Part shown: piece by piece, positions 1-63,400 of the stretch
Numbering within the stretch: position 1 is the first letter of the stretch
Layout of the letters: every line of letters begins with the position of its first letter
From: Tropicimonas marinistellae
Lineage (GTDB): Bacteria; Pseudomonadota; Alphaproteobacteria; Rhodobacterales; Rhodobacteraceae
Assembly: GCF_001509585.1 (NCBI RefSeq)
Contig: NZ_LNCI01000006.1
Span: 62,001 to 126,000, forward strand
Direction: 5' to 3'
Length of the DNA stretch: 64,000 bases
Program-made: the position numbers and the translations under genes
Notes under the pieces: model-generated
The model's input: only the letters and a program-made list of their open reading frames with translations
What the model was told of the DNA's origin: nothing
The model's database searches: none

Positions 1-252
1 TCTTCTGGTGAAAAGCACCTGTTGATGTTGATGTGCAATATCTTAGTTGGAACTAGCCAAAAAAGCTTGTTCCTAGTTGATGAGCCGGAACTTTCCCTCA
101 ATGTTAAGTGGCAAAGAACTCTGGTCGATGCCCTGTTGGATTTGTCTTCAGGCAGCGCCATTCAATTTCTTATGGCAACGCACTCGATAGAACTCTTAGC
201 AAAACACAAACACTCAACTCTTCGCCTAAAACACTTCGATTTGAGCGCCTGA
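1..252 (+). CDS. ABC/AAA-type ATPase, C-terminal part (PARIS AriA-like), cut by window edge
   Basis: The reading frame is open from base 1 and ends in TGA at 250-252, so only the last 83 residues are present. They contain an ABC signature (SSGEK, residues 2-5 of the fragment plus K), a Walker B with D-loop (LFLVDEPELSLN) and a switch histidine (MATHS). These are hallmarks of SMC/ABC-like ATPases of the AAA_15/AAA_21/OLD kind. The stop overlaps the ATG of the next gene (TGATG), so the two are translationally coupled. A DUF4435/TOPRIM partner immediately downstream matches the PARIS anti-phage arrangement (AriA ATPase, then AriB). The DNA is clearly richer in A+T than the rest of the window, suggesting recent acquisition. 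The N-terminal Walker A is outside the window, so the exact family is open; other OLD-like ATPases are possible. Confidence 0.8.
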   Translation, partial: SSGEKHLLMLMCNILVGTSQKSLFLVDEPELSLNVKWQRTLVDALLDLSSGSAIQFLMATHSIELLAKHKHSTLRLKHFDLSA

Positions 253-1133
253 TGTATCAAAGAGAGATTGCGGAACTGATTGTGTTGTACGAGTTCGAAC
301 CGGAACTCAGAAGCCTCTGGGTCGAAGGGCCATCTGACCGAGCCTTCTGGGAATGGTATTTGTCTAATAAGGATCTAACTGGTGTCGAAGTTAACTCAAT
401 TGATCAAGTAAACGTTCCTGACGATGTTTTAAGAAGATACGGCTTGACGGCAAGCAACAAGAACCGTGCCATTGCTACGGCTCTTGAATTGGAGGAAGGC
501 CTTAGTGATGCTGACGATCACGCGAGTTTTCTATTTGTAGTGGACTTGGACTTTGATCATTTTTCCGGAAGGCAAATCGAAGGGAAGTTCATAGTATACA
601 CGGATTTCACGGCAGTGGAGATGTACTTTTTTGATCCGGAGGTCGTGGAAAAAATCATAAAACTTGCGACCAAGAAACCTGACAGATCTGCCCAAGAGCT
701 AATGCAAGGGCTATCGGAAGTTGGGAGCCAATTGTTTTGGATCCGCACTGCAAATGAAATTTTGGGTTGGGGCATGACGCTACCAAATCCAGATAAACTG
801 CTGTTGGAGGAAAATAACTCTATTAGCTTTGATGTTGAAACATATTCTCACCGGTTGCTTCAATCTAACGGTAGGTCCAAAGACTCTGTCGAGTTTGAAG
901 ATATGTTGGCGTCGCTAAGAGAACATTGCGTCGATGACGTTCGGCTTAAGATCCGGGGGCATGACTTTGTAGATCTTTTGGCTTGGACCCTTAGAAAGGA
1001 AATTAAGTCAAAGGTAGCTGGAAAAAACAGCGAGATTGTCGCAACGCTGCTGTTAATGACGGCCGATGTCGGCGTTTTGGCTACGTACCCCCTTTTTGAA
1101 AGAGTGGAAGCGGAGCTGTTCGCGGCTTCTTAG
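252..1133 (+). CDS. DUF4435 / TOPRIM-like nuclease subunit (PARIS AriB-like)
   Basis: The protein has 293 residues. I chose ATG 252 because it overlaps the upstream stop; the same frame stays open further upstream, but that would overlap the ATPase extensively. Residues 24-29 read VEGPSD, the TOPRIM glutamate motif (E25). Residues 95-102 read FVVDLDFD, the acidic D-x-D-x-D strand. YTDFTAVEMY (116-125) matches the acidic block after it in DUF4435 proteins. In PARIS the DUF4435 subunit is the toxic effector nuclease held by the ATPase and released when a phage anti-restriction protein is sensed. That role is inferred here from domain pairing and overlap. The composition is AT-rich like the partner. 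A different OLD-type ATPase/TOPRIM pair remains possible. Confidence 0.72.
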   Translation: MYQREIAELIVLYEFEPELRSLWVEGPSDRAFWEWYLSNKDLTGVEVNSIDQVNVPDDVLRRYGLTASNKNRAIATALELEEGLSDADDHASFLFVVDLDFDHFSGRQIEGKFIVYTDFTAVEMYFFDPEVVEKIIKLATKKPDRSAQELMQGLSEVGSQLFWIRTANEILGWGMTLPNPDKLLLEENNSISFDVETYSHRLLQSNGRSKDSVEFEDMLASLREHCVDDVRLKIRGHDFVDLLAWTLRKEIKSKVAGKNSEIVATLLLMTADVGVLATYPLFERVEAELFAAS

Positions 1134-1587
1134 ATTTTGAACGGCCTGATGTCGAGTTTAACCTCAGGCAGATTCACTGTCCGCTTTTTTCTTTTGTGGA
1201 TGAGCTAGCTCGCGACCGCAGCGAACTCCCGCTCCCCACCCTTCCTACGGCATGCTGCAATTGACATGGACGGGGGCTTTCGGACGCGGAACCGTCGCCC
1301 GAGCATTTTCAGCAGAGGGCCTCGACGTCCGCAAATCTGCCGATGCCCCGCCTCGCCGCATTGCGCCAAATGGGCTGTTCGCCGCCAATCCCCGCGATGA
1401 CTACTAACGGCAGGGATCACGTCGCCGTCTCGACCGATGGCGTGGGGGGGGTTGAGCCACGGCGGCGCCGGGCATCCGTCCGGCCGTGCGCTCCGGACCC
1501 TTAACGAAGCGTGAATCCGTGCCCGTAACCCATTGAAATCTCTTGGGCGCCCCCCTGTCTCACGCGTGAGACATCTCCGCCGGGCGG
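1134..1587. other. 454-bp non-coding junction between AT-rich island and GC-rich core
   Basis: No credible gene is visible. A minus-strand ORF (1205-1591) has a low-complexity, Arg/Pro/Gly-rich translation like no family I know. The composition changes abruptly near 1200, from AT-rich to GC-rich. The right end carries the 63-nt palindromic element (1511-1573). This may mark the boundary of the accessory island; I saw no integrase or tRNA. Confidence 0.6.
1511..1573. repeat. Dispersed 63-nt palindromic element, copy 1
   Basis: The layout is GTGAAT (1511-1516), 9 variable bases, TAACCCATTGAAAT (1526-1539), 16 variable bases, then the perfect 18-bp palindrome TGTCTCACGCGTGAGACA (1556-1573). A second copy at 40380-40442 has identical blocks and identical spacings but unrelated spacer sequence. 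Weaker similarity continues about 10 bases to the left. The element lies just beyond the stop codon of the minus-strand FAD oxidase. Possible roles are a dimeric protein operator, an RNA hairpin (7-bp stem with a CGCG loop) or a mobile repeat. The sequence alone does not decide. Confidence 0.85.
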
Positions 1588-3003
1588 TCACGCCCCCCGC
1601 AGCACCGCGCCGGGATTCATGATCCCCGCCGGATCGAGGGCCGCCTTGATCGCCCGCATCGCCGCCAGTTTCGCCGGGTCCCCGTAGCGCTCCAGATCCC
1701 CGACCTTCAGCCGCCCGATCCCATGCTCCGCGCTCACCGAGCCGTCGAATTCATGCACCAGATCGTGAATCGCCCGCTTCACCGCCCCGCGCTCAGCCTC
1801 GAATTCCGCCGCGCGCCGCCCCGCCGGCGGGAAGACATTATAATGCAGGTTTCCGTCGCCCAGATGGCCGAAGCAGTTGATCCGCATCGCGCCGAAACCG
1901 GCGATCACCTCGGCGCCCTTCTCGATGAAGTCCGGCATGGCCGAGATCGGTACCGAGATATCGTGAGACGAAACCGCCCCGATCCGCCGGTTCGCCTCCG
2001 GGATCGCCTCCCTGAGATGCCAGAAGGCGAGCCTCTGGGCCTCGTTCTGCGCGACCACCCCATCGGACACGAGCCCGGCCTCCAACGCCTCGGCGAAGAG
2101 CCCTTCCAGTTCCGGCTCCGGGGAGGGGACGCCGGACAACCCAATGCCCACCAGGACCATCCACTCCGGCGCCGTCGCGAAGGGCTGGCGAACCTCCGGC
2201 ATGGTGTCGCGCAGGAAGTCGAGCCCCATCCGGTGGATCAGTTCGAACGCGGAGACGCCCTCCCCCATGCGCCGCTGGGCCATGGACAGCAGTTTCAACG
2301 CCGCGACCGGGCTTTCGACGGTCAGGAAGGCCGCTCCCTTCACCGCCGGTCGCGGATAGAGACGCAGGCTCGCCGCCGTGATTACGCCAAGGCTTCCCTC
2401 CGCCCCGATCAGCAGGTTGCGCAGGTCGTAGCCGGTGTTGTCCTTCCGAAGCCGCTTCAGCCCGTGCAGGATCGATCCGTCCGGCAGCACGGCCTCCAGC
2501 CCAAGGCACAGTTCCCGCGCGTTTCCGTACCGCAGCACGTTCACCCCGCCCGCGTTGGCCCCCAGAAGCCCACCGATCTGCGCCGACCCTTCGGAGGCCA
2601 GTGACAGCGGGAACATGCGCTCCACGTCCCGCGCCGCCTGCTGGACATGGGCCAGCACCATACCCGCCTCCGCGACCAGCACGTTCTCGGCCGGATAGGT
2701 CCCGCGCAGTCGGTTCATCCGCTCCATGGACATCAGGATGGGCCGTGGAAGGTCCTCGGCGACCTGCCCCCCCACGAGGCCGGTCCCGCCGCCGTAGGGA
2801 ACCACCCCGACACGATGCGCGGCGGCCAAGCGAACGGCCAGCGCCACCTCCTCTGTCGTCCGCGGCGCGAGCAGCAGGGCATCGCCGCCCTTGTAGCGCC
2901 CTCGCGGCTCTTCAAGGTAGCGCGGCGCCAGCGGTCGGAAGGCTTGCTCCGGCAGCGCCGCATGCAACGCGGATTCGATTTCTGGCGTGACCGGGTTCAG
3001 CAT
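1588..3003 (-). CDS. FAD-linked oxidase, GlcD / D-2-hydroxyacid dehydrogenase family
   Basis: A 471-residue VAO-type flavoenzyme that should oxidise a D-2-hydroxyacid (D-lactate, glycolate or D-2-hydroxyglutarate) in the cytoplasm or at the inner membrane. The N-terminal FAD-binding domain carries PYGGGTGLVGG and GAEGSLGVITAASL. The C-terminal FAD-oxidase domain carries HLGDGNLHYNV and SAEHGIGRLK. These are conserved in GlcD, D-lactate dehydrogenase and D2HGDH. I prefer ATG 3003 (MLNPVTPEIE), which fits the family N-terminus; the frame is open to 3027. A partner iron-sulfur subunit (GlcF) is not adjacent, so a stand-alone enzyme is more likely than glycolate oxidase. The substrate is not determined. 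Confidence 0.88.
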   Translation of the reverse strand: MLNPVTPEIESALHAALPEQAFRPLAPRYLEEPRGRYKGGDALLLAPRTTEEVALAVRLAAAHRVGVVPYGGGTGLVGGQVAEDLPRPILMSMERMNRLRGTYPAENVLVAEAGMVLAHVQQAARDVERMFPLSLASEGSAQIGGLLGANAGGVNVLRYGNARELCLGLEAVLPDGSILHGLKRLRKDNTGYDLRNLLIGAEGSLGVITAASLRLYPRPAVKGAAFLTVESPVAALKLLSMAQRRMGEGVSAFELIHRMGLDFLRDTMPEVRQPFATAPEWMVLVGIGLSGVPSPEPELEGLFAEALEAGLVSDGVVAQNEAQRLAFWHLREAIPEANRRIGAVSSHDISVPISAMPDFIEKGAEVIAGFGAMRINCFGHLGDGNLHYNVFPPAGRRAAEFEAERGAVKRAIHDLVHEFDGSVSAEHGIGRLKVGDLERYGDPAKLAAMRAIKAALDPAGIMNPGAVLRGA

Positions 3004-3063
3004 CGCGATACCTCCTGTGCCGATCAACCACGCGGCGCAGGCGGGTGCAAGGCGGTGGGTCCG

Positions 3064-10807: not shown

Positions 10808-11704
10808 TCACTCCGCCGAGGCCAGATCGAGCGCGCGCGGCTTGCCCGCGTATTCCTCGATCGCGCCGTCCAGCCAAGCGTCGTAGGCTTCCTGGCTCAC
10901 GACCTTCACCGTAATCGGCATGTAGGCATGCGCAATACCGCAGAGTTCGGAGCACTGGCCGAAGTAAACTCCCTCTTCCTCGGCCTTGAACCACAGCTCG
11001 GCAAGGCGGCCGGGGACGGCATCCTGTTTCACGCCAAAGGCGGGGATCGTCCAGGCATGGATAACGTCTGTCGCCGTCACCTGCACCACGACCGTCTTGT
11101 CGACCGGCACGACAACCGCCGTATCGGTGGCCAGAAGGAAATGCTCCTTCTCGTAGCCGGCCTCTTCCAGTTGCGCGACGACCTCGTCGGTCAGCTTGTT
11201 CTCGGCATCGGCGCCGATCATGTAGCTGTCGAAGGAAAACTCGTGATCGGGGTATTCGTAGGTCCAGTACCACTGGTTGCCGATCGCCTTGATCGTAACA
11301 TCGCCTTCCGGGATGATCTGCTGCTTGAACAGAACCGGCAGCGAGAACGCCCCGATGAAGATCAGGATGATGATCGGCACGATGGTCCAGGCGATCTCCA
11401 GCGGAGAATTGTGGGTGAACCGGGCAGGTTCGGCATTGGCGCGCCGGTTGTAGCGGACAAAGACAACCGCCACGAGCGCGAGGACGAAGAGTACGATTGC
11501 GGTAATGATATAAAGCAGAAGCCCGTCGAGCCACTGCAGGTCCCGCGCCAGTTCCGTCACTGCTGGCTGGAAGCCGATTCCACCTGGCACCGGAGCCCCG
11601 ATGATCTCCAGTTCGCCCTGCGTGTCTTGTGCAAAGGCGGCGCCGGTTGCAGCAAGCCCGGCAAGGGCAGCTGCGAAGCCGCTCTTCAACGTGATACGTC
11701 GCAT
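10808..11704 (-). CDS. ctaC: Cytochrome c oxidase subunit II
   Basis: A 298-residue subunit that receives electrons from cytochrome c at the CuA centre. I chose ATG 11704 because the signal peptide then begins [16 protein letters not shown] and ends GAAFAQ. The frame is open to 11830 but the extra residues are not signal-like. Two TMs follow (about 45-65 and 88-108). The periplasmic cupredoxin domain ends with [14 protein letters not shown], which supplies the CuA cysteines, histidine and methionine. The W-Y-W-x-Y motif ([11 protein letters not shown]) for electron entry is present. First gene of the minus-strand cox run. Confidence 0.97.
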
Positions 11705-11890
11705 CAAATTCTTGTCCCGTTCGCTAGTCGGCATATGCCGAAACAGGTCCCCTCCCCCGGCGGCCGAAGCCTCCGGGCAAAGAGCCCGTTGTGTCCTTGG
11801 GTCTAGAGACCATATTACGAAAAACTGCACAACCCGGTGATTTGCGTCAACAAGTCACTTGCGAATTTGTCGATCAGTTGGAGACGCCCC

Positions 11891-13321
11891 TTGACCTCGA
11901 CCGAGAATACACCTTTCCGCCCCTTTGAAACGCGGCTCGACCAGACCGAGGCGCTGCGCATCCTGCAAGAAGCCACGCAAGGCGCTGATGACGGGGAGAT
12001 CTTCCTGGAGCGCCGCCGTTCCGAAGCGCTGGTGTTCGACGATGGCCGGCTCAAGACTGCGAGCTACGATGCCTCCGAAGGCTTCGGTCTGCGCGCGGTG
12101 CGCGGCGAAACGGCCGGCTACGCGCATTCCACGGAGATCAGCGAAAACGCGCTGCGTCGGGCCGCGGGAACGGCCCGGCTGGCGGTCGGCGACGGTGGCG
12201 GGTCACTGGCGGACGGACCTGCCGCGACGAATCGGCGCCTGTATTCCGACGACAATCCGATCGGCGACGCCGAGTTCCCGGTGAAGATCGAGACCCTGCG
12301 CGAGATCGACGCGTTCGCGCGCGACCTTGACCCGCGCGTCGTGCAGGTCTCCGCGACGGTGGCGGCATCGTTGCAGGAGGTGACCATCCTGAGACCCGAC
12401 GGGACGATCGTTGCGGACAGCCGCCCGATGAGCCGCCTGAACGTCAGCGTTATCGTCGAGCACAACGGGCGGCGCGAACAGGGCGGAACCGGCGGCGGCG
12501 GTCGGGCTGGCCTCGATGGCCTGCTCGACCGCTCCCACTGGCAGGGTGTCACCCGAGAGGCACTGCGCATTGCGCTGGTCAACCTGGAGGCGGAACCCGC
12601 GCCCGCCGGCGTCATGGATGTGGTGCTTGGCCCCGGCTGGCCGGGGATCCTGCTCCACGAGGCCATCGGTCACGGGCTGGAGGGCGACGCCAACCGCAAG
12701 GGGACCTCCGCCTTTGCCGGGCTGATGGGGCAACGGATTGCCGCGCCGGGTGTGACCGTGCTTGACGACGGCACGATTCCCGATCGCCGGGGCTCGATCA
12801 CCGTGGACGACGAGGGAACGCCCTCGCGGCGCAATGTGCTGATCGAGGACGGTATCCTCGTCGGCTTCATGCAGGACAGGCAGAACGCGCGGCTGATGGG
12901 CGTGGCGCCCACCGGGAACGGCCGGCGCGAAAGCTATGCCCACCCGCCCATGCCGCGCATGACGAACACCTACATGCTGGCCGGAGACGCCGCGCCGGCC
13001 GATATTCTGGCCGATCTGGAGGATGGGATCTATGCCGTGGGTTTCGGAGGCGGGCAGGTCGATATTACGAATGGCAAATTCGTCTTTTCCTGCACCGAGG
13101 CCTATCGCGTGACGGGCGGCAAGGTGGGCGCACCGGTCAAAGGCGCCACACTGATCGGCGACGGCCCGACGGCGTTGCAGCGAATCACCGCCATTGGAAA
13201 CGACATGGCACTCGACCCCGGCATCGGCAATTGCGGCAAGGCTGGACAATGGGTTCCGGTCGGCGTCGGGCAGCCGACACTGCGCATCGGCGGGCTGACC
13301 GTCGGAGGCGCGGCCGCCTGA
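11891..13321 (+). CDS. tldD: Metalloprotease TldD
   Basis: A 476-residue PmbA/TldD-family protein. With TldE/PmbA it degrades small peptides, including microcin B17 leader and CcdA. The zinc-binding HEAIGHGLEGD (HExxxH) begins near residue 256. The start is uncertain: the frame is open from ATG 11837, but the family N-terminus (FRPFETRLDQTEALRIL) fits a TTG at 11891, with GGAGA about 8 bases upstream. The partner pmbA is not in the window. It is divergent from ctaC, with 186 bp between the chosen starts. Confidence 0.93.
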   Translation: MTSTENTPFRPFETRLDQTEALRILQEATQGADDGEIFLERRRSEALVFDDGRLKTASYDASEGFGLRAVRGETAGYAHSTEISENALRRAAGTARLAVGDGGGSLADGPAATNRRLYSDDNPIGDAEFPVKIETLREIDAFARDLDPRVVQVSATVAASLQEVTILRPDGTIVADSRPMSRLNVSVIVEHNGRREQGGTGGGGRAGLDGLLDRSHWQGVTREALRIALVNLEAEPAPAGVMDVVLGPGWPGILLHEAIGHGLEGDANRKGTSAFAGLMGQRIAAPGVTVLDDGTIPDRRGSITVDDEGTPSRRNVLIEDGILVGFMQDRQNARLMGVAPTGNGRRESYAHPPMPRMTNTYMLAGDAAPADILADLEDGIYAVGFGGGQVDITNGKFVFSCTEAYRVTGGKVGAPVKGATLIGDGPTALQRITAIGNDMALDPGIGNCGKAGQWVPVGVGQPTLRIGGLTVGGAAA

Positions 13322-60419: not shown

Positions 60420-63400
60420 CTAGATCCCTGTCAGGTCATCCACGAACGTTATCTGCTCGAGCATGGTGACGCCCTTGATGTCGAGCCTCTCGCCATCGGG
60501 TCCAACCGTCAGGATCACGCGGTTGCTCAATTCCTGCACACTGGTGTACGTGGCACCATTGAGATCGATGACATCCTGCCCCGCGACATAATCGATGACG
60601 TTCACACGGTCGAAAACCCCGTTGGTGAGAAGGTCCGAACTGAGACGGAACGTATCTTCGCCGCTCCCACCTGTCGCCCTGTCGTTGTCGCCGCTTCCAG
60701 TGAAGACGAAAACGTCATTGCCGCCGCCGCCGAACATCTTGTCGTCGCCATCGCCATCGATCAGCAGGTCATTGCCGTTTCCGCCATAGAGCTTGTCATC
60801 GCCCGCGAGACCCGAAATCGCATAGTCTTGGCCGTCCGGAGCGGCGATGACATCGTTGCCCGGCGTGCCAGTCAGTTCAATGAGATCTGTGTCTGGCTCG
60901 TTGGTGATCGTGATCGAGACGGTGCCGGTATCCACGCCGCCGTTGCTGTCATCGACCACGTAGGTGAAGCTGTCGGTGCCGACGAAGCCCGCATTTGGCT
61001 CGTAGCTCCAACTGCCATCGGGTCCGACACTCGCAGTGCCGCTGGAGGCACCGGTATCGAGGTTGTACGTGAGTGCGTCGCCGTCCACATCGGAAGCGCT
61101 CACCTGACCGGTCAGCGTGGTATCCTGTGGTCCCGCCCCGCTATCGTCCGAAGCAACGGGCGCATCGTTGACCGGTTGCACGGTCACGTTGACGGTCACG
61201 GTGTCCTCGCCGCCTTTCCCATCGCTGGCCAATACGTCAAAGCTGTCGGAACCGTTGAAGTTCAGGTTCGGCATGTAGCTGTAGCTGCCATCACTCGCCA
61301 CAACAACGGTGCCGTTCGACGGGTCGGACGCCTTGGTCAGCGTCACCGGATCGTCGTCGTCATCGGTGGCCGTGACCTGCCCCGTGATCTTCGTATCCTC
61401 GTCGCCGACCGGTGTATCCGGCACGGCGACCGGTGGTGTGTTGGCTTCGAGGATCGTGACCAAGACGGTGCCTATGTCCAACCCGTCATTCCCGTCGACC
61501 ACTGTGAAGGTAAAGCTGTCGGTGCCGAAGAACCCGGCGGTGGGTTCGTAGCTCCAACTCCCGTCGGACGCGACGTTCGCCGTGCCGCTTGTCGCCCCGA
61601 CATCGAGCGAATACGTCAGAGGATCGCCGTCAACATCCGTCGCCTGCAAGTCACCGGTGAGGGTCGTATCCTGCGGCCCCGTCCCGCTGTCGTCGGCAGC
61701 GACAGGTGCGTCGTTGACCGGCACGACAGTGACGTTGACCGTCACGACATCCACCCCGCCCTTGCCGTCACTTGCCCTCACATCGAAACTGTCGGAGCCA
61801 TTGAAGTTCAGGTTCGGCACATAGCTGTAGCTGCCGTCGCCCTCCACTGTGACGCTGCCGTTCGAGGGGTCGGACTCCTTGCTGAGTGTGACCCCGTCGC
61901 CGTCAGCGTCCGTGGCAGTCACCTGCCCGGTGATCGTCGTATCCTCGTCGCCAACCGGCAGATCCGGCACGGCAACGGGCGGTGTATTATCGCTGCCGCC
62001 CCCGGTCGGGTCGTCGTAGGAGCCGAAGAGGATGCCGGAGTAGCTTCCGGTGCCGATGACCTCCACCAGATCGTTGTCGGGCCCGACAAAAATCTTGACC
62101 CGGTTGTTCAGCTCGTTGACCGAGTTGACGGACGCTCCGCCAAGATCGATTGCGTCGCCGCTCTGGTAGTCGACGAACTTGACCGCGTCCGTTGTGCCAT
62201 TTTCCAGCAGTGCTTCGGTCAGCTTGAGGATGTCCGCGCCGGCACCGCCAGTGAACCGGTCCAGCCCGCCCCCCTGAACGAGGAAGAAATCCTCGCCTGC
62301 GCCGCCGAACACTTTGTCGTCGCCCGTGCCGTCCCGGAGGATGTCGTTGCCGGCGCCACCTTCGAGCCGGTCATCGCCCTCCTCGCCGTCCAGCAGGTCA
62401 TCGTCGCCAAGACCCTTGAGCACGTCATTGTTTGCACGACCATAAAGCCCATCTCGCTGACCGTCCGCGCCGGTAAGCGTGTCCGCCGCCGGGGTGCCGA
62501 TCTGCTCGACATAGTCGCTTGGCGGCTCGACCACCGTTTCGCCGATATAAGTCGTCTGGAGATATTCTTCGATCGCGTCGAATTCGCTCGTCGACAAGGC
62601 TCGGTTGAAGACGAGTGCCGCAGCCACCTTCATCGGTGTCTCGCCGCCGTCCAGGTTCTGACCGATGACAAGTCGCTCCATGACGGTGTTGAAAGACGCT
62701 GCGCCGGAGTCGATCTGCTCGCCGTTCACATAGTGCCGGTAGATTGACCCGTCGAACACCACGGCGTGCGAAACAAAGCCCCGCTCCTCGCCCGTCGCCG
62801 GGTCGTCCACCCCATCCACATCTGTCGCGAGGTCGCTGTTCCAGCCGTGGATGTTGAAGTCGTTCTCGTTCCCGTCGAGCGTCAGACCGAATGCCTGGTT
62901 GTCGCTATCGTTGCCGTAGACGAGGCCGGCGGCTTCGTCGTTAGTCACCGTTTCATAATCGACGACGAAGAACATGGTTCGCGGATCGTTGCCGAGTGCG
63001 AAACTGGTGAGAGAGTCGCTGCGCCCGATCGCATCTCCGACCCCGTCGAACACGATGGCCGGCTGCCCGGTTGGCGTCGCGTTCTCCACGAGTTGCGGGT
63101 CACCCTGTGCAGTCAGGTTATTGCCGTTCCCGGATTGGTCGAGCCATTCCGTAACGGTCGTGCCGTCCTCCCCAAGACCGATTTTGATGAAGGATTCCAC
63201 CTGCATGACAAGGCCATCCGTCACCGGCAACCCGCTCACCTCCCCGACGCGGATCGGAATACTGTCGGATAGGACATCAGGCGCCTCGCCGTCCGAGATC
63301 GTCAGAACCGCGTTGAACAGCCCCACATCGGTGTAGGTATGCTGAACGACGATCTCGCCATCGGCATTCGGGCTTCCCTCCAGCGCAACGGAACCATCGC

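Follow-up and report, generated by a model that had tools for sequence, protein, structure and literature searches.

A probable divergent two-gene PARIS anti-phage system in horizontally acquired DNA of Tropicimonas marinistellae

In the PARIS anti-phage system of E. coli, the ATPase AriA restrains AriB until a phage protein frees it, whereupon AriB nicks tRNAs (PMC11455837 and the accessible part of PMC12409363). The discovery paper, in the portion available, gives ariAB as present in 5.2% of genomes (PMC9122126), and a survey of which part was accessible places PARIS among the TOPRIM-linked OLD-ABC systems (PMC12839542). An ATPase-DUF4435 pair is also described within a Salmonella BREX locus in the available text of PMC9009780. 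The functional PARIS work that we found concerns E. coli (PMC11455837 and the accessible parts of PMC12409363 and PMC9122126). Here we describe a pair of genes at the left edge of a 64,000-nucleotide stretch of Tropicimonas marinistellae DNA (hereafter the window; contig NZ_LNCI01000006.1, or C38, positions 62001-126000, in an assembly of 5.42 Mb and 41 contigs) that is, in all likelihood, a divergent two-gene PARIS system acquired by horizontal transfer. Support for the identification comes from a published Pfam rule, PADLOC, a search of PDB sequences with the ATPase, comparison of folds, the order of the genes and their catalytic residues. Finding such a pair in a genome is routine. None of the literature matches listed reports this one, which carries little weight.

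The original prediction, made from the window, was that the end of an ATPase gene marked by SSGEK and MATHS overlaps, through TGATG, a TOPRIM/DUF4435 gene containing VEGPSD and FVVDLDFD, and both the reading frames and Pfam bear this out. The window holds the 3' end of the ariA-like gene for an ABC/OLD-type ATPase (window 1-252, + strand; LSSGE signature, Walker B FLVDEPE, H-loop THS), with SSGEK encoded at 1-15, MATHS, and the stop codon TGA at 250-252, while its 5' part lies beyond the window edge. Extending the contig leftward, as had been proposed, recovered the complete frame of 515 codons at C38:60705-62252 (L009:15705-17252), including the Walker A motif GDNGSGKT in addition to LSSGE, FLVDEPE and THS. 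Candidate start codons lie at C38:60705, which gives the longest frame, and at 60870 or 60897; since most aligned homologues start near an internal ATG (C38:60870 or 60897), the ATPase is probably 451-460 amino acids long. The ariB-like gene (window 252-1133, + strand) begins with an ATG at 252-254 and encodes a predicted DUF4435/TOPRIM nuclease of 293 amino acids, in which VEGPSD spans residues 24-29 and FVVDLDFD residues 95-102. Its start and the stop of the ATPase gene form the TGATG at window 250-254 (+ strand), read directly, and have one base in common (window 252), an arrangement from which we infer translational coupling of the pair.

The domain matches of both proteins are well beyond chance. 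The 83-residue ATPase fragment alone matches Pfam AAA_21 at E=5.6e-12, and the full ATPase does so at 1.9e-20 (AAA_21 74.6 bits, AAA_15 57.3 bits); the second protein matches DUF4435 at 36.2 bits (E=7.1e-9; 30.8 bits in the genome-wide search) and has no further Pfam match up to E=1. The rule published for detecting two-gene PARIS, as given in the available part of Rousset et al. 2022 (PMC9122126), asks for AAA_15 at 32 bits or more or AAA_21 at 27 bits or more, plus DUF4435 at 27 bits or more, and the pair passes it on both the ATPase and the DUF4435 side. The ATPase gene also lies directly upstream of the DUF4435 gene on the same strand, which is the PARIS gene order. The AAA_15, DUF4435 and PADLOC PARIS searches that had been proposed for checking the prediction all match the pair. 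Two findings had been named in advance as grounds for abandoning it, an ATPase N-terminus from a family foreign to such pairs and a second gene outside DUF4435/TOPRIM; the whole ATPase proved to be AriA-type, and its partner falls inside DUF4435.

These comparisons also bear on whether the ATPase might instead be a PtuA of the Septu or retron type that stands beside an unrelated partner. Many PtuA models of PADLOC match it, the best at 64.0 bits, but AriA heads the PADLOC results at 87.5 bits. A single-sequence search of the PDB with the ATPase returned AriA first (best 4.5e-14), followed by a transporter ATPase at 6.6e-6, and a profile of 13 AriA proteins found AriA at 2.8e-45 and then a retron ATPase at 1.7e-26; retron ATPase chains come after AriA in the fold search too. 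In Septu PtuAB the partner, PtuB, is an HNH nuclease, whereas here the partner is a DUF4435 protein for which AriB is the sole family listed by PADLOC, and which has no HNH or PtuB match in Pfam or PADLOC. The Septu or retron alternative is already disfavoured by this and appears very improbable. With NCBIfam, none of the best 25 of 79 rows for the ATPase was at the cut-off and the AriB-like protein had no row at all, and no Rfam family reached its gathering score around the pair.

When 13 AriA proteins were aligned, K56, G380-E381, D404-E405 and H438 (460-residue numbering) were among the invariant columns, and the Walker A, signature, Walker B and H-loop motifs of the ATPase are all intact. 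In an alignment of 13 AriB proteins, ours included, the four invariant columns are E25, D98, D100 and E123, which correspond to E26, D88, E90 and E122 of E. coli AriB in three of three MAFFT modes, so the acidic residues expected of a TOPRIM domain are likewise all present. According to the accessible part of PMC12409363, an E26A mutant of E. coli AriB neither stalls ribosomes nor yields cleavage fragments. The closest solved structures to AlphaFold models of the two proteins are AriA and AriB, the predicted fold of the second protein matching AriB. The solved entries 8ux9 and 8v45-8v49, which we take to be the PARIS proteins of E. coli B185, are distant in sequence, with structural-alignment identities of 14-18% for AriA and 15-16% for AriB.

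The intactness of these residues matters for a further alternative, namely that the pair is a degraded, non-functional remnant in a mosaic insert. Many open reading frames (ORFs) of the surrounding segment, described below, lack a Pfam match, and a promoter scan found 4 consensus sites where 2.7 were expected, the sole + strand site being inside the ATPase gene and none standing out. Against this, both frames are full-length and retain their catalytic motifs, and we regard decay as unlikely. Apart from its foreign look, this intact-looking pair is an ordinary representative of a defence family already known, by analogy with which we infer a function in defence.

Related loci show the same linkage of domains. 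Of 295 genomes in a family sample 6 carry DUF4435, as do 19 of the 398 in a phylum sample; our genome is counted in both. An ATPase is linked to DUF4435 at all 23 other loci, 22 of which are above the Pfam cut-off for DUF4435: at 12 loci as a separate gene directly upstream on the same strand, with no more than 30 bases of gap or overlap, and at 11 within a single frame. Both domains are above the cut-off in 10 of the 11 single-ORF loci; at the remaining one (L066) the ATPase is above it and DUF4435 slightly below (24.6 versus 27). These single-protein AriAB fusions resemble our pair in joining ATPase and DUF4435 and differ from it in being one polypeptide, and in the AriA tree 10 of these 11 fall into a supported group of their own. 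The closest AriA proteins among the ORFs compared belong to two-gene PARIS pairs of the same layout, L047 from a genome of the same family (91.3 bits) and L064 from another class in the phylum sample (86.6 bits), but identity to them is low, at 23% and 21% for AriA and 19% and 17% for AriB, respectively. The tree joins L047, L064 and our AriA with support of 88/87, under the star threshold of the tool, and our AriA is a long branch whose placement is unsure.

The AriB-like protein is no more than 19% identical to each of the 12 relatives aligned. No close relatives of it were found by tblastn of plasmids and phages at E<=1e-5, or by peptide patterns, which detect close relatives only, over viral contigs and a collection of genomes from 84,980 species; among 384 other genomes of the class none matched at E<=1e-8, the one match in 385 being our own. 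Peptide patterns for the ATPase likewise gave no close relative in genome contigs or viral contigs, and tblastn with it returned distant ATPases in 39 plasmid and 8 phage records, all below 60% identity.

A broader reading, to which we give only tentative credence, is that of a PARIS-like ATPase-TOPRIM pair of the wider OLD/ABC class, whose trigger and effector substrate (DNA or other tRNAs) differ from those of PARIS. It partly overlaps the PARIS identification, which leaves trigger and targets open. OLD nucleases have ATPase and TOPRIM in one chain; the separate DUF4435 protein seen here is the PARIS layout, and both its fold and its profile are closer to AriB than to OLD or Gabija. GajA of Gabija also combines ATPase and TOPRIM in one chain, unlike our two genes, and Gabija requires the helicase GajB as well (PMC12839542, available part). 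Pfam recognised no helicase family in the 22 other segment ORFs searched or in the right-hand neighbour.

If the pair works like E. coli PARIS, a multimer of AriA, which in PARIS is a hexamer, would keep AriB inactive until AriA is bound by a phage protein, in E. coli the anti-restriction DNA mimic Ocr. AriB would then be freed, dimerise and nick the tRNAs of the host within the anticodon loop, on its 3' side, and the resulting halt in translation would abort the infection. The run cleaved in E. coli, UAAUC|A, occurs in one host gene each for tRNA-Lys(UUU), tRNA-Asn(GUU) and tRNA-Thr(UGU), which is weakly consistent with tRNA cleavage.

Several observations weigh against assigning the pair to PARIS or to this mechanism. 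The tRNA search used the run itself, without a look for other copies, and a tRNA-Arg(UCU) gene also has UAAUC. A single-sequence PDB search with the second protein found no AriB, so great is its divergence, and a profile of 13 AriB-type proteins returned two sequences up to E=10, both of them AriB, at just E=0.083 and 0.17. The AlphaFold models are middling (mean predicted local distance difference test scores of 63.1 and 66.5), and the Foldseek superpositions are loose, with a template-modelling (TM) score of 0.42 and a root-mean-square deviation of 11.7 for AriB and query-normalised TM scores of 0.38-0.49 over 16 rows for AriA. The anticodon-loop lysines K60 and K64 of E. coli AriB, whose replacement by alanine stops defence (PMC12409363, accessible part), are placed inconsistently by three MAFFT modes and a profile, and are not clearly conserved in our AriB. 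This placement and the PDB search using the second protein alone are the two tests whose outcome was less clear. Finally, the HsdR N-terminal domain (PF04313) was not found in the host genome in a search that did not extend to other restriction types and that was positive in 9 of 14 control genomes, so that the anti-anti-restriction logic would have no type I system to guard.

The pair may represent a distinct PARIS lineage, with an AriB directed at other tRNAs or holding the anticodon arm differently and an AriA sensing something other than anti-restriction DNA mimics; we consider this possible but doubtful. It would fit the failure to find HsdR in the host and the lack of clear conservation of the anticodon-loop residues. 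A copy that is so deeply diverged, comes from another bacterial lineage and keeps its catalytic residues could serve to test the range of trigger and tRNA specificity in PARIS.

The foreign origin of the pair, proposed at the outset from its AT-rich composition relative to the flanking core, is supported. The pair is all that was recognised in the cassette of about 2.5 kb that carries it (C38:60650-63140, its right part at window 1-1140). GC content is 45.4% in this cassette, whereas 248 overlapping 1-kb windows taken from window base 1201 onward average 63.6% (SD 3.2, minimum 55.9%). Third-position GC is 0.45 and 0.49 in the two genes versus 0.82-0.85 in three neighbouring genes. The pair occupies one end of a segment of 18.6 kb, which is bordered on the left by a gene for a phosphoribosyltransferase (Pribosyltran, 56.0 bits) and on the right by one for an FAD-linked oxidase (FAD-oxidase_C, 161.9 bits; window 1588-3027, - strand). 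The right flank was matched in 28 of 40 genomes, a count that takes in our own and some matches away from this junction, and we compared the junction in ten relatives, eight of the genus and two of the family. In seven of the ten the segment is absent and the flanking genes adjoin, their alignment ends being separated by between 0 and about 240 bases, compared with about 18.6 kb here. The other three comprise a different 8.3-kb insert, a rearrangement, and a genome in which the left gene was not found within the 20 kb taken. Together, composition and absence from the junction support horizontal acquisition of the pair; the segment may have come in a single event or in several, or may have been lost from other genomes.

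The island had also been expected to continue leftward and to hold further defence genes. The segment does reach about 15.7 kb beyond the ATPase gene, with markedly AT-rich DNA confined to the roughly 2.5 kb around the pair, but no second defence family was recognised in the 22 other segment ORFs run through Pfam or in the 10 run through PADLOC (E<=1e-5), which leaves this part of the prediction unsupported as far as the searches reach; L009 has 66 ORFs of at least 100 amino acids, the pair and the right flank included. The products encoded include a hybrid histidine kinase, a phosphonate-binding protein, a methyltransferase, an Lcl C-terminal-domain protein, a proline racemase, a pyridoxal phosphate (PLP) enzyme, an HxlR regulator, a cytochrome c and a DUF6639 protein. 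The lone PADLOC match among them, to mad2, was rejected, as Pfam gives a generic methyltransferase for that protein.

Two other lower-GC stretches of the segment (51-53%; L009:8500-9500 and 11000-13050) surround the Lcl C-terminal-domain gene and the genes for the PLP enzyme and HxlR regulator, respectively, which suggests that the segment was built from several acquisitions. The 8.3-kb insert, which a same-genus genome has at this junction (L038:1610-9933, G390:C27), carries genes for an RTX-repeat protein, a LysR regulator, an aldo/keto reductase and DUF1706, suggesting that the junction has gained DNA more than once; the 10 of its ORFs searched with Pfam gave metabolic, regulatory and RTX-repeat families and no recognised defence family, PADLOC not having been run. 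A search for repeats at the cassette ends gave three short inverted pairs and one direct pair of 30 nucleotides with 70% identity, at L009:15335 and 18412 with 3.1 kb between them; we draw no conclusion from these.

The pair is separated from the conserved right flank by a spacer (window 1141-1587) in which no gene was recognised; a 128-residue mechanical ORF there (window 1205-1591, - strand) has no Pfam match. The spacer contains a copy (window 1496-1576, C38:63496-63576) of an interspersed element of about 75 bases, laid out as a palindrome TGTCTCACGCGTGAGACA, then TTTCAATGGGTTAC, then a GGATTCACG..TTAAGG-like tail, with copies also at L003-L008 and L077-L081. By blastn it occurs in at least 12 further places in the genome (40 of 71 candidates scored), and a strict pattern picks up 6 copies here and none in 59 other genomes, of which 8 belong to the same genus. 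Eight copies were aligned, six of which were picked by the pattern, so their similarity is partly by construction. The window copy has no Rfam match, and the element looks like a small, recently spread one. A 97-base stretch of the same spacer (window 1218-1314, L002:1501-1597) is 81% identical to C39:129119-129215 and has shorter matches in two same-genus genomes.
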